Source of the DNA: Lachnospiraceae bacterium
GTDB lineage: Bacteria; Bacillota; Clostridia; Lachnospirales; Lachnospiraceae
Reading direction: 5' to 3'
DNA length: 64,000 bases
Assembly (NCBI GenBank): GCA_014804795.1
Contig: JAAUZC010000044.1
Location: 1 to 64,000 of the forward strand
How positions within the stretch are numbered: position 1 is the stretch's first letter; the number at the start of each line of letters is the position of its first letter. Shown in pieces: positions 5,370-57,938 of the stretch. A program made the translations under genes and the position numbers. The notes under the pieces were generated by a model that made no database searches, was not told the origin of the DNA, and saw only the letters and a list, made by a program, of their open reading frames with translations.

Positions 5370-5396
5370 CTTTCTCTCCCTCCTGTTTTTAGTCCC

Positions 5397-5436
5397 GTAT
5401 CTGTTCTACCGGTGTCATATGCGGCAGAACAGATAC
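5397..5436 (-). promoter_or_regulatory. Leader hairpin / operator candidate upstream of rhaT
   Basis: GTATCTGTTCT (5397-5407) and AGAACAGATAC (5426-5436) are an 11-bp perfect inverted repeat with an 18-base loop. It sits between a likely -10 box and the rhaT ribosome site. The 3' arm plus GGGA is echoed in the rhaB leader. It could be an mRNA hairpin or a DNA-binding site. Confidence 0.5.
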
Positions 5437-5465
5437 TGATTTTAGTTCCGTTTCAATTTTCATTT

Positions 5466-18569: not shown

Positions 18570-18583
18570 ATTGGTATCCTCCA

Positions 18584-18596
18584 TTCCAGTTCCGCA
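18584..18596 (-). repeat. Solo copy of 13-mer repeat end, before asnS
   Basis: TTCCAGTTCCGCA on the plus strand is identical to two copies at 57821-57833 and 57926-57938 and close to 31910-31922. On the minus strand it leads into AATGGAGG and the asnS start. Confidence 0.55.
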
Positions 18597-18606
18597 CATG
18601 CCATTT

Positions 18607-30813: not shown

Positions 30814-31896
30814 TTATTCTGCCGCACGCAATGCAGACTCTATAATCTTTTCGCACAGTTCCCCAAAAGATACTCCTTCGGCCGCTGCCTCCTGCGGCAG
30901 CAATGACGTCGGTGTCATGCCGGGCAAAGTATTGGCCTCTAAACAGAACATCTCACCCGCTTCATTCATCATAAAATCCATGCGCGCGTAATTTTTCAGC
31001 CGCAAAATCTGAAATGCTTTCTCCGCCCATCTCTGCATTTCCCTTGTTTTTTCCTCTAAAATATCCGCCGGACAGGTTTCTATTGTACTGCCGGCCTGAT
31101 ATTTATTTTTGTAATCATAAAAGCCCTGTTTTGGCGCAATCTCTATGACAGGAAGAGCACGCCCCTCCATCACGCCTACGGAAAACTCTCTGCCCTTTAT
31201 GTACTGCTCAATAATCACCTCGTCATCATAGCCGAAAGCTTCCCGCAGTGCTTTTTCATATTCCTCTTTCTTATTTACCATATAGACGCCTACGCTGGAG
31301 CCGCCGTTGCAGGCCTTCACCACAAGGGGCAGTGAAAGCTCTCTTCCATCCCCTGAAACAACTGCTTCCCCGTTCGGCTTCCTCTTTTCCAGATAGGTTT
31401 CCAGTTCCTCCTTTTTTAAACGAAAGCCCTGCGGTGTCGGGATTCCATGAACCGCAAACAATTCTTTTGCCAGTCCCTTATCCATACAGATTGCCGAACT
31501 TACATAATCCGTACCGGTGTAACGAATCCCCATCAGATCAAAGTATGCCTGTATTCTGCCGTTTTCTCCGTTTTCACCATGAAGCCCCATAAATACCACA
31601 TCGGCGGCCTGACAGATTGCAATGACCTTCGGCCCGAAAAAGTTTTTCTTCCAATCCGGACGCAGTGCCTTAATCTGCTCGATGTCCGGGCTTTCCTCCG
31701 AAACATTCCCTATTTCCGCCGCCCAGTCATAGTCCTTTTCAAAAATATTCTCTTCCTCTCCCGCATAGCCCAGAAAAACATCCAGAAGCACCACCTGATG
31801 TCCGCGCTCTTTCAGCTCTCTATAAATCAGGCTTCCTGAACTCAAAGATACATCTCTTTCCGGGCTGATGCCGCCCGCTAATACTACAATTTTCAT
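30814..31896 (-). CDS. ddl: D-alanine--D-alanine ligase
   Basis: Makes the D-Ala-D-Ala dipeptide. It is 360 aa, an ATP-grasp enzyme. The N-terminus is LAGGISPERDVSLSSG, HGENGENGRIQAYFDLMGI follows, and the omega-loop region reads FYDYKNKYQAG, where Lys-Tyr argues for D-Ala rather than D-lactate specificity. C-terminal metal ligands are in CLEANTLPGMT. The ATG at 31896 follows GGAG by 8 bases, and that site is directly downstream of a copy of the dispersed structured repeat. Confidence 0.95.
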   Translation of the reverse strand: MKIVVLAGGISPERDVSLSSGSLIYRELKERGHQVVLLDVFLGYAGEEENIFEKDYDWAAEIGNVSEESPDIEQIKALRPDWKKNFFGPKVIAICQAADVVFMGLHGENGENGRIQAYFDLMGIRYTGTDYVSSAICMDKGLAKELFAVHGIPTPQGFRLKKEELETYLEKRKPNGEAVVSGDGRELSLPLVVKACNGGSSVGVYMVNKKEEYEKALREAFGYDDEVIIEQYIKGREFSVGVMEGRALPVIEIAPKQGFYDYKNKYQAGSTIETCPADILEEKTREMQRWAEKAFQILRLKNYARMDFMMNEAGEMFCLEANTLPGMTPTSLLPQEAAAEGVSFGELCEKIIESALRAAE

Positions 31897-31909
31897 GTTC
31901 TGCTCTCCA

Positions 31910-32017
31910 TTCCGGTTCCACATCCGTCCTTCCGGCACACGATAACGGAAGACAGATTTGCAGCCGCTTACACGCCCGCAAATCGTCTTGTGCGCTGTCC
32001 GGACTTCTGCTGTTTTT
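31910..32017 (-). repeat. Dispersed structured repeat, copy A (before ddl)
   Basis: It is clearly homologous to 57821-57926. It folds into a long hairpin: CCGG (31932-31935) with CCGG (31999-32002), AAGAC with GTCTT, and GATTTGC (31955-31961) with GCAAATC (31978-31984). Its terminal motif TTCCGGTTCC recurs at 32089-32098 inside the end of the neighbouring gene. Relative to copy B two pairs change in a compensatory way (G-C to A-T). On the minus strand the element ends at the ddl ribosome site. Confidence 0.7.
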
Positions 32018-32085
32018 CGCTTCTATCAATATCCAAACTCACAAACGCTTCGCTCTTTGTTCGTATCCCCCGTTTTCAGCTTGGT

Positions 32086-33555
32086 CTATTCCGGTTCCGT
32101 ACCCGACGCTTCCACGATCTCCCGCTCCGCCTCTATCACACTGAGCAGCAACAGCATTCTCGCCGCATCCTTTCCTCCCGGATTTTCCAGCAAAAACGCC
32201 GCATCCTCATTCCTGCCCGACAGATAGTGTATATGGTTCTCAATCACTGTAACATACTCATGATTCATGATCGCGTAATTCGCAAACGCCATGATCGTCA
32301 TATCCCACAACATGGCGTCCGGTTCTTTTTCTTCCACCAGAAACAGGCCGTCCTTTTCCCTTGCCGCTATATTCTCTGCGTCTTCCATCAAGCCGTCCAT
32401 GATCAGACCGCACAGGTCATGATCTACTTTTCTCCTTGTGGACAGGTAGGTGACTTTCCCCATCAGCAGGTAAAAATCCTCTTTCTGGCCCACTATATAT
32501 TCCTGATTCTGTAAAATATAATTATGATATGATCTTTCATTTGATGCACGATAAAGTTCCGACGCCGCATAAAATCTCCCGTTCATTACAGCTGCAGCAT
32601 CTGACTGATCATTTCCCTGATTTTTTCCATTTTTCGTGCTGTCTTTATACCGCCATGCTTTCGCTGCGGCCTTCAGACAAATATTGGCATAATCAAAGTC
32701 TATCTGCTGATACAGATAACTGTATTTTGCCATAGTCGCCGCAAACAAGACAGTAGCCTCTTCACTGATGTTCTCTGCCGGCTCCCGATCATCCGCATCC
32801 GTCACAGGCAAAGCCCCGGTATCTGTGTAAATACCTCCTGTTTTTTCCTCCTGCATGGATAAAAGCCTGTCTGTTTCCCTGCGAAGCATCCGGAAAAAGG
32901 CCTCTCCTGTTTCTTCCGAAGTTTGAAGCACCATATTCCCCGAATTCCAAATCTGTGTAAAAAGTTCCGGATACATCTCATATGCTGCCAGAAGATAGCT
33001 GATCATCTCACAGATCTCCACCGTATTCTGCATCTCTTCTATATCCCGTGATGCTTCTATGATTTCTCCAAGTTCTTTTGCTTTCTCCAGATAGGCATCT
33101 TTCCCAATCATGAAATAATAGGAACATCCTATTTTATCACATTGAATATAATAATTTCCCTCTTCCCGCAGTTCCGTAAAGAGACCATACCCTGTTGATA
33201 CACCGTTCGTATCCTCTTTCAGACGTATCTTGCCCTCATACACGCATTCTCCGGAGTCTTTCTCTATAACCTGAAAGTTTTCCGGCAGCTCTCCCCCTTG
33301 AAAAAATACCGTTTTCGTACTCTCCGGCAGATAGCCCAGACGGTCTATCTTAACGTTTGGACTTTCTTCCTTTTTTTCGTAGGAAAAATCAGGCTCCAAC
33401 CCCAGCGTTTCCGCTGTAAAAACGGACTCCTCCTGCGCATCCTGTTTTTCCGCCATAAAAGGGACAGGCACAGCGCACCCTGACAGAAACACAGATACTG
33501 TCAGAAATAATACTACTATGGAAATATATTTTTTATTTTTATAATATCGTTTCAA
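32086..33555 (-). CDS. GH9-like lipoprotein lacking the catalytic segment
   Basis: 489 aa. The start appears to be TTG with AGGAGA 8 bases upstream. Lipobox FLSGC makes Cys27 the lipid anchor. Residues about 65-160 resemble the Ig-like N-terminal domain of family 9 cellulases (VKIDRLGYLPESTKTVFF). Residues about 175-470 follow the GH9 alpha-toroid: LLAAYEMYPELF, LLSMQEEKTGGIY, ATVLFAATMAKYSYLY, then RFYAASELYRASNE and HYLSGRNEDA. The GGWxDAGD segment with the catalytic Asp residues and the C-terminal Asn-Glu acid are not found. It may bind rather than cut glycans. The family comparison is from memory. Confidence 0.65.
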   Translation of the reverse strand: MKRYYKNKKYISIVVLFLTVSVFLSGCAVPVPFMAEKQDAQEESVFTAETLGLEPDFSYEKKEESPNVKIDRLGYLPESTKTVFFQGGELPENFQVIEKDSGECVYEGKIRLKEDTNGVSTGYGLFTELREEGNYYIQCDKIGCSYYFMIGKDAYLEKAKELGEIIEASRDIEEMQNTVEICEMISYLLAAYEMYPELFTQIWNSGNMVLQTSEETGEAFFRMLRRETDRLLSMQEEKTGGIYTDTGALPVTDADDREPAENISEEATVLFAATMAKYSYLYQQIDFDYANICLKAAAKAWRYKDSTKNGKNQGNDQSDAAAVMNGRFYAASELYRASNERSYHNYILQNQEYIVGQKEDFYLLMGKVTYLSTRRKVDHDLCGLIMDGLMEDAENIAAREKDGLFLVEEKEPDAMLWDMTIMAFANYAIMNHEYVTVIENHIHYLSGRNEDAAFLLENPGGKDAARMLLLLSVIEAEREIVEASGTEPE

Positions 33556-34685: not shown

Positions 34686-34838
34686 AAAAGCCCTGTCTCG
34701 ATGTCTAGGCAGACTGCATGCAAGGATGCCCAGACATCTGAGACGCTATCATGTATGAGCAAGCAACACGATAGTGTGGATTGCGAATACATGGCGGGAT
34801 TATGGGAGCACGAAGTGCGGAATAATCCCGGGGCTTTT
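34686..34838. ncRNA. Multi-branched inverted-repeat structure, candidate structured RNA
   Basis: A closing stem AAAAGCCC (34686-34693) with GGGCTTTT (34831-34838) encloses three hairpins. The first is a long stem, 34695-34711 with 34727-34744 (GTCTC, ATGTCT and GGCA blocks). The second is CTATC(A)TGT (34746-34754) with 34766-34774. The third is CGGGATTAT (34795-34803) with ATAATCCCG (34822-34830), capped by GCAC/GTGC. It begins 11 bases past the stop of the EF-hand gene and ends before the SpoIIQ-like promoter. Strand is undecided. It could be a structured 3' UTR, a small RNA or a non-autonomous mobile element. Confidence 0.45.
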
Positions 34839-57703: not shown

Positions 57704-57805
57704 TCACTCTTCCATATATTCCCTGTATTCACGCTCCGATGCAAACAACATATATCCGCTTCCCGTCCATCCCATATATCCCTGTGATGTTGTGTATCCT
57801 TTCAT
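57704..57805 (-). CDS. 33-aa small protein of unknown function
   Basis: A 34-codon frame with an ATG at 57805 and GGAG 7 bases upstream. The protein is rich in Tyr and Gly, with QGYMGWTGSGYMLFASE followed by REYREYMEE. I recall similar tiny proteins with YML/YRLFASE and a Tyr-Glu-rich end in other Lachnospiraceae, but cannot verify that here. It directly follows copy B of the structured repeat, whose end merges with its ribosome site. It is upstream of nupN on the same strand; no terminator was seen between them. It is easily overlooked because of its size. Confidence 0.55.
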   Translation of the reverse strand: MKGYTTSQGYMGWTGSGYMLFASEREYREYMEE

Positions 57806-57820
57806 GCTCTCTCCTTTCTA

Positions 57821-57938
57821 TTCCAGTTCCGCAGATCCCCTTCCAGCACACGAATAGCGGAAGACAAATTTACAGCCGTTTCACGTCTGCAAATTGTCTT
57901 GTGCGCTGTCTGGGAATCTGCTGTTTTCCAGTTCCGCA
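57821..57938 (-). repeat. Dispersed structured repeat, copy B (before the small ORF)
   Basis: Homologous to 31910-32017 and flanked by an exact 13-mer direct repeat (57821-57833 and 57926-57938). It folds as CCAG (57843-57846) with CTGG (57910-57913), AAGAC with GTCTT, AATTT (57867-57871) with AAATT (57891-57895), and CAG with CTG. Two G-C pairs of copy A are A-T here, keeping the stem. The minus-strand end reads into GAAAGGAG and the small ORF start. Confidence 0.7.

Follow-up and report, generated by a model that had tools for sequence, protein, structure and literature searches.

Two copies of a long hairpin lie on the minus strand of the window, as we call the whole 64-kb stretch of DNA analysed here, one in front of ddl and one in front of a 33-codon open reading frame (ORF), and the question they raise is whether such a repeat is a mobile miniature element, a leader RNA of the genes that follow it, or both at once. 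The preliminary description of this DNA had considered the first two as possible, after pointing to two base pairs that differ between the copies in a compensatory way and to a 13-mer at the end of the element that recurs before asnS. A covariance-model search finds both copies at those sites and on that strand, with the exact bounds and scores given in Table 1, and all eight bases of the two compensatory pairs (G31955/C31984 against A57867/T57895, and G31934/C32000 against A57845/T57911) are as reported. The 13-mer GCGGAACTGGAAT occurs at 18583-18595 before asnS and at 57820-57832, with GTGGAACCGGAAT as its variant in copy A. The asnS occurrence does belong to the same family, with the correction that what stands there is a solo P1 arm and tail, from the element's 3′ end, and not a full copy; it is a relic of the hairpin-element family. 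Folded as RNA, the minus strands of copies B and A reach −47.0 and −40.7 kcal/mol respectively, and the plus strands of both fold more weakly. The 33-codon ORF behind copy B gave no match in a Pfam search; its product is rich in glycine and aromatic residues and could be a small protein.

Table 1. Units of the element, relics and neighbouring features in the window.
Feature	Position	Strand	Evidence or remark
Copy A, full unit: ACA, P1-P4 hairpin, tail GGAACCGGAA	31910..32013	-	cmsearch with R2 85.6 bits; R1 E 3.6e-23; fold z -2.5 against shuffles; adjoins the ddl ribosome site on its 5′ side
Copy A, P1 3′ arm	31920..31929	-	pairs with 32001-32010; fold and model alignment
ddl Shine-Dalgarno sequence GGAGAG	31903..31908	-	directly 3′ of the copy A tail; sequence
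ddl, D-alanine--D-alanine ligase, downstream of copy A	30817..31896	-	NCBIfam PRK01372.1, TIGR01205, E 1e-97
Tail relic ACGGAACCGGAAT, 5′ of copy A	32088..32100	-	
Second short hairpin repeat GGGGGATACGAACAAAGAGCGAAGCGTTTGTGAGT	32018-32090	-	between tail relic and copy A
Copy B, full unit	57821..57924	-	cmsearch with R2 105.1 bits; fold z -5.9 against shuffles; 3′ end: tail GGAACTGGAA, then AAAGGAGAG, then ATG of the 33-codon ORF
Truncated upstream unit, tail GCGGAACTGGAAA	57925..57937	-	abuts copy B on its 5′ side
33-codon ORF downstream of copy B, product MKGYTTSQGYMGWTGSGYMLFASEREYREYMEE	57704..57805	-	
Core-deleted copy, P1 hairpin and tail retained	5380..5439	-	cmsearch R2 27.8 bits, E 7.7e-5; followed by CAGGAGG and an ABC-transporter ATPase-like gene
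Solo P1 3′ arm and tail GGCATGTGCGGAACTGGAATGGAGG, unit relic before asnS	18577..18604	-	14.5 bits
Clostridiales-1 RNA (RF01699), complete	34687-34837	+	101.5 bits; sole Rfam match in the window

Beside the element itself, the window holds the second short hairpin repeat listed in Table 1, which recurs at four other places in the host genome, matching two of them strongly and two weakly; one of these is near the hisC array, and relatives are found at loci L154 and L161.

The unit is about 104 nt long and reads, in order, ACA, stem P1, a G·A internal loop, P2, an asymmetric bulge, P3/P4, the return arm P1′ and the tail GGAACUnnAAU, after which come the Shine-Dalgarno (SD) sequence and the ATG. 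P1 has 10 pairs, whose sequence is specific to each locus, P2 has 7, and P3/P4 has 15 including mismatches, with a bulge of about 8-10 nt on the 3′ side; the return strands are followed by CGGAACUnnAAU. Between P1 and P2 the purine-rich internal loop sets GGA facing GAA, where stacked G-A pairs probably form, and the unpaired ACA and GGAACU, both conserved, stand on either side of P1. The subtypes vary in P2-P4: besides the main type there are a GCUUCAUUUACGG type (L036, L038, L042), a CCAGAGGAUUU type (L030, L032, L037) and long-loop forms carrying extra hairpins (L033, L039, L040). In these last (L033/L101, L039/L106, L040/L107) two hairpins are added, with conserved letters, GNTAC and GGTTCCCG, linking them, and the added hairpins may be a separate embedded RNA; comparison of these long-loop forms with Rfam brought up nothing beyond weak hits in unrelated families. 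At three loci in two species (L106, L097, L136) a small palindrome, ATGCATCGC..GCGATGCAT, is nested at one common point of the P1 3′ arm. In other genera the letters of P2 and P3 are very different, and the layout, start and tail are the same. In the host genome the bulge (UUCCGC) and the tail (GCGGAA) looked able to pair as a pseudoknot; we rejected this because, on inspection, other genera do not conserve the bulge.

How widely is the unit spread? BLAST with copy B gave 48 matches in the host genome, and the covariance model R1, built on 30 units, gave at least 73 copies there (E < 1e-5; 3.45 Mb), far above the two that were first seen. Like this figure, the counts for other genomes come from model searches and are of copies among the matches listed: at least 33, 50, 62 and 84 in the congeners G003, G007, G001 and G006 respectively, at least 10 and 12 in G005 and G008, and none in G002 and G004, members of the same genus with smaller and less complete genomes. 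Across the family, carriers were found in 7 of 334 genera with R1 and in 6 of 298 with the broader model R2, and a class-wide survey of 291 genomes gave no carrier except the host. About six genera of the family besides the host's own have the unit in many copies. These surveys scored 9-13 candidates per genome and may miss low-copy or divergent carriers. On a valS tree the carriers require six state changes, three of which are forced by well-supported branches. Rfam 15 held no match to the element at gathering score, the best relaxed match being a chance one, searches of plasmid, phage and viral collections gave none either, and in the literature we found no described repeat of the start-codon hairpin kind. 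The element family has not been described before, and it adds an RNA family for a group of anaerobes.

In five genomes taken together, 181 of the 223 copies end, on the 3′ side, no more than about 45 nt from where an ORF of at least 40 codons starts, always in the sense of the gene; the other 42 are nearly all upstream units of tandem arrays, together with copies at contig ends, the one before the window's 33-codon ORF and one case in G003. In the host, all 73 copies read in gene sense and stand either at a start or in an array. The placement at start codons that had been proposed from two copies is strongly supported by these numbers, and random positions or orientations are not what the further copies display. 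From GGAAC to the ATG the median distance is 23 nt, and an SD-like motif lies between tail and ATG in 144 of 167 copies; at L082, L092 and L110 the ATG follows straight after the tail. Tandem arrays reach four or more units (G006). Often all that is left of their upstream units is a P1 hairpin or a 3′ end, the gene-adjacent unit being intact, and broken pairs amount to 4.5% in start-proximal units against 7.8% in upstream array units (p = 0.02).

Units within 15 nt of a same-strand stop codon number 21 of 179, and a unit can run from the upstream stop codon to the next SD; for the setting of the units relative to upstream genes we used these stop-adjacent cases alone, simple ORF calling having proved unreliable for the strand of the upstream neighbour, where long antisense ORFs confuse it. 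Such spans would suit an element that cuts polycistronic mRNA between cistrons, either cleaving itself, in which case it would be a ribozyme of a new class, or being cleaved by a protein. The conserved unpaired ACA and GGAACU that border P1 would suit it as well, and the 32 stacked pairs might be cut by RNase III, by analogy with the report on Correia elements (PMC10969869). Some copies, however, stand behind leaders and not between cistrons, as at valS, and we regard a dedicated cleavage element as quite improbable.

An NCBIfam screen of 30 downstream proteins returned unrelated functions, with no pathway or regulon theme common to them. Those identified include hisC, clpX, smpB, dnaG, uppP, gpsA, rfbA, adk, aroB, rsmE, nusA and ddl, and also spoIIAB, a porA-like and a serA-like gene, a crotonase, a clpB-like gene, pdxT, purA, purE, a transketolase (tkt), a leuC-like gene, ytvI and others. 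The conserved core, the internal loops and the fixed position before the SD would agree with a riboswitch that senses a ligand, or with a regulon leader able to hide and expose the SD, and at some loci the 5′ arm of P1 might pair instead with P1-arm fragments lying upstream. Genes as diverse as these nevertheless share no pathway, and known riboswitch classes have, to our knowledge, far fewer copies per genome than 70-90. Nor is the SD sequestered in the predicted fold: the SD has a predicted accessibility of 0.594 behind the native core, of 0.568 (p = 0.003) when the core is shuffled and of 0.581 when it is left out, and in the default predicted fold the SD is unpaired. Accessibility is slightly raised rather than lowered, and we rejected SD sequestration on that ground; simple insulation of the SD is weakly supported, the predicted rise being so slight. 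The riboswitch or regulon leader appears to us less probable even than the cleavage element.

Whether the fold is under selection can be read from 150 aligned copies and the 32 pairs of the model. Pair cells are formed in 95.3% of cases against 75.8% in shuffles, compensatory cells number 886 against 230, all 32 pairs vary among the copies, and double compensatory changes are found at 31 of them. The covariation score of 0.548 compares with 0.191 in shuffles and at most 0.109 in slid structures, and none of 500 shuffles and no slid control approached it; across genera the score is 0.584 against 0.214. Selection on structure, suggested at first by two pairs, is thus strongly supported. One could still imagine that this covariation arises at the level of DNA, through quasipalindrome correction by template switching and with no RNA function at all, and the host's type-2 copies at valS, C45 and C53, where P1 differs while the cores are nearly identical, would agree with such correction. 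But it would erase a G-U wobble of the kind conserved at columns 22-99 (in 104 of 150 copies), and counting strongly against it is the roughly tenfold excess of G·U over A·C (257 against 27), which holds in P1 (29 against 6), P2 and P3-P4 taken singly. Because G·U stands so far above A·C, it is the gene-sense RNA strand that folds, and selection acts on the RNA and not on a DNA palindrome. The copies at starts are, besides, always in gene sense, and the DNA-level artefact seems to us scarcely credible. What the 5′ leaders carry is a conserved fold in their gene-sense strand, as a cis-acting leader RNA does, and that the element is such an RNA, kept by selection, we consider very likely.

The history of individual sites bears on whether the element also moves. 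At valS the host unit lies between a leader terminator and AGGAGG, and G001, G003, G006 and G007 are empty; at a porA-like gene the unit stands exactly between GATG and AAGGAGGG, inside the terminal codons of the gene before it, whose reading frame runs on through the unit. Comparison of filled and empty sites at these two genes places the insertion exactly 5′ of an existing SD, and at porA nothing beyond 2-3 A could be counted as a target-site duplication. The only clear target duplication seen is one of 27 bp at L104 (C15:12870-13084; L104/L037; orthologue L142 in G007), a direct duplication that flanks a two-unit array and repeats the end of the upstream gene and the SD. At L079 (C10:148162-148272) the element is translated in frame and adds about 35 residues to the upstream protein before its original last codons. 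Some relatives retain relics only, and congeners are often without the element at a given gene, so that it must be dispensable gene by gene. Near-identical copies at different loci are few (best 94-95%, medians 81-87%), from which it follows that the spread is slow or old.

In an orthologue comparison that covered about 10% of each relative's genome, 25 genes bear a unit in at least two species. Ten of 39 orthologous pairs are rank 1-2 best matches, and each of these ten probably goes back to one insertion. Together they hold 60 changed base pairs, and in 30 of them both bases were replaced and still pair, in 10 a single base was replaced and the pair survives, and in 20 the pairing is gone; independent changes would have given mostly single, breaking changes, and the fold has therefore been maintained in place, an argument that we draw from these ten pairs only. 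Other shared genes carry differing subtypes, so that independent gain or exchange of cores is also common, and many of the shared genes may be such cases.

Short, non-coding, folded, dispersed and present in many copies, the unit has the make-up of a MITE, and it might be a selfish element of that sort, as BOX, REP, ERIC and Correia are, moved by a host transposase, with a structure that serves mobility and with the copies at ribosome sites being simply the tolerated ones. The large number of copies, their tandem arrays, the relics that are truncated or have lost the core, a patchy distribution requiring several gains or losses, the filled and empty sites, and type-2 copies 94-95% alike at three host loci, among them valS with its four empty congeners, are all in keeping with it. 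Constant terminal inverted repeats, however, are missing, the P1 arms being complementary but locus-specific, and no partner element was found. The presence of the element tracks neither Y1 transposases nor reverse transcriptases: a Y1 transposase (RAYT, IS200/IS605) was rejected as a necessary mobiliser, with no PF01797 match in carriers G001, G005, G021 and G304, and so was a reverse transcriptase or retron, with no PF00078 match in carriers G001, G008, G021 and G197. The nearest copies at other loci are mostly just 81-87% alike, compensatory change goes on in place, and the host set is free of antisense or displaced copies, whereas 16 of 86 BOX elements in the pneumococcus lie between convergent genes (PMC3049150). 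A purely selfish element is, in our judgement, unlikely. The two possibilities named at the outset turn out to be combined: the filled and empty sites establish dispersal, and the single orientation, the in-place compensatory change and the intact copies beside the start codon amount to the behaviour of a leader RNA; the hallmarks of a classic MITE, that its terminal inverted repeats are constant and that a transposase goes with it, were not found.

The reading we prefer is that of a dispersed, co-transcribed 5′-leader RNA element, acting in cis and under selection where it is located, and we hold it to be probable, if less firmly than that the RNA is a selected leader. In the mRNA the unit would form a long interrupted hairpin whose single-stranded tail, GGAACUnnAAU, leads to the SD of the next gene, and it would act in cis on the downstream cistron, post-transcriptionally. 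Its most likely role would be to provide a defined, structured 5′ boundary beside the ribosome site; this boundary could be a processing site, a block to 5′-3′ decay, or both, uncoupling the gene from the upstream RNA, and the conserved core might be read by a protein. A structured mRNA boundary fits best on account of the position, the lack of a regulon theme, the absence of SD masking and the dispensability from species to species, and we put forward the boundary or processing role tentatively. New copies could arise by recombination or template switching, with the SD as the shared homology, as the positions of the junctions suggest, and if copying is anchored at the SD, the copies would all point one way and join exactly at their 3′ side, with no transposase needed. 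A bolder and rather doubtful extension is that SD-directed copying colonises ribosome sites and has placed about 2% of genes, many of them essential, under one RNA-binding factor or nuclease; if true, this would be a genome-wide layer of post-transcriptional control. Bacterial interspersed repeats are mostly read as tolerated parasites. With its dispersal, strict placement at starts and selection on the fold at single genes, the present family offers a test case for a repeat becoming, or spreading as, a translation-start module, and the filled and empty sites of sister species are natural controls for the element's effect. It also carries a warning for annotation, as such leaders may lengthen upstream reading frames, as at the porA site, and mask true start contexts.

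Among known systems, the family is a new variant of the interspersed structured repeats, leader-RNA-like in its working. Like the structured 5′ leaders of Rfam 15, it lies upstream of genes and has a conserved fold in which compensatory changes occur, but it matches none of their families, and its genes have no common function. The nearest described repeats are the BOX elements of Streptococcus pneumoniae (PMC3049150), which are likewise short and interspersed, number about a hundred per genome, fold when transcribed, are modular with a variable number of repeats, and have reported effects on nearby genes. Unlike BOX, the present elements invariably follow the direction of the gene and stop at the SD, with none of the 73 host copies between convergent genes, and they have locus-specific P1 arms in place of fixed termini and no boxA-B-C modules. 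Correia (NEMIS) and ERIC elements are likewise hairpin repeats and are transcribed together with genes; their terminal inverted repeats are constant and their positions vary, whereas the present unit is fixed in orientation and in distance to the start codon and changes in a compensatory way in place. RNase III is reported to cleave Correia transcripts, and ERIC can alter transcript levels (PMC10969869). The REP/BIME elements, which go with RAYT (Y1) transposases, resemble the family in being extragenic hairpins scattered in many copies, at times tandemly arranged, but Y1 transposases are absent from the element-rich G001, G005, G021 and G304, and the present copies sit at starts. The hairpin and the tandem form also brought integron attC sites into consideration; the copies here are scattered at single genes. 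In marine Beggiatoaceae, finally, TAACTGA direct repeats, for which a translational role has been proposed (PMC4679880), likewise occur in many copies, in one orientation, just 5′ of the start codons of functionally unrelated genes and in patchy taxa; those are tandem repeats of a heptamer, whereas the element described here is a covarying hairpin of 104 nt.
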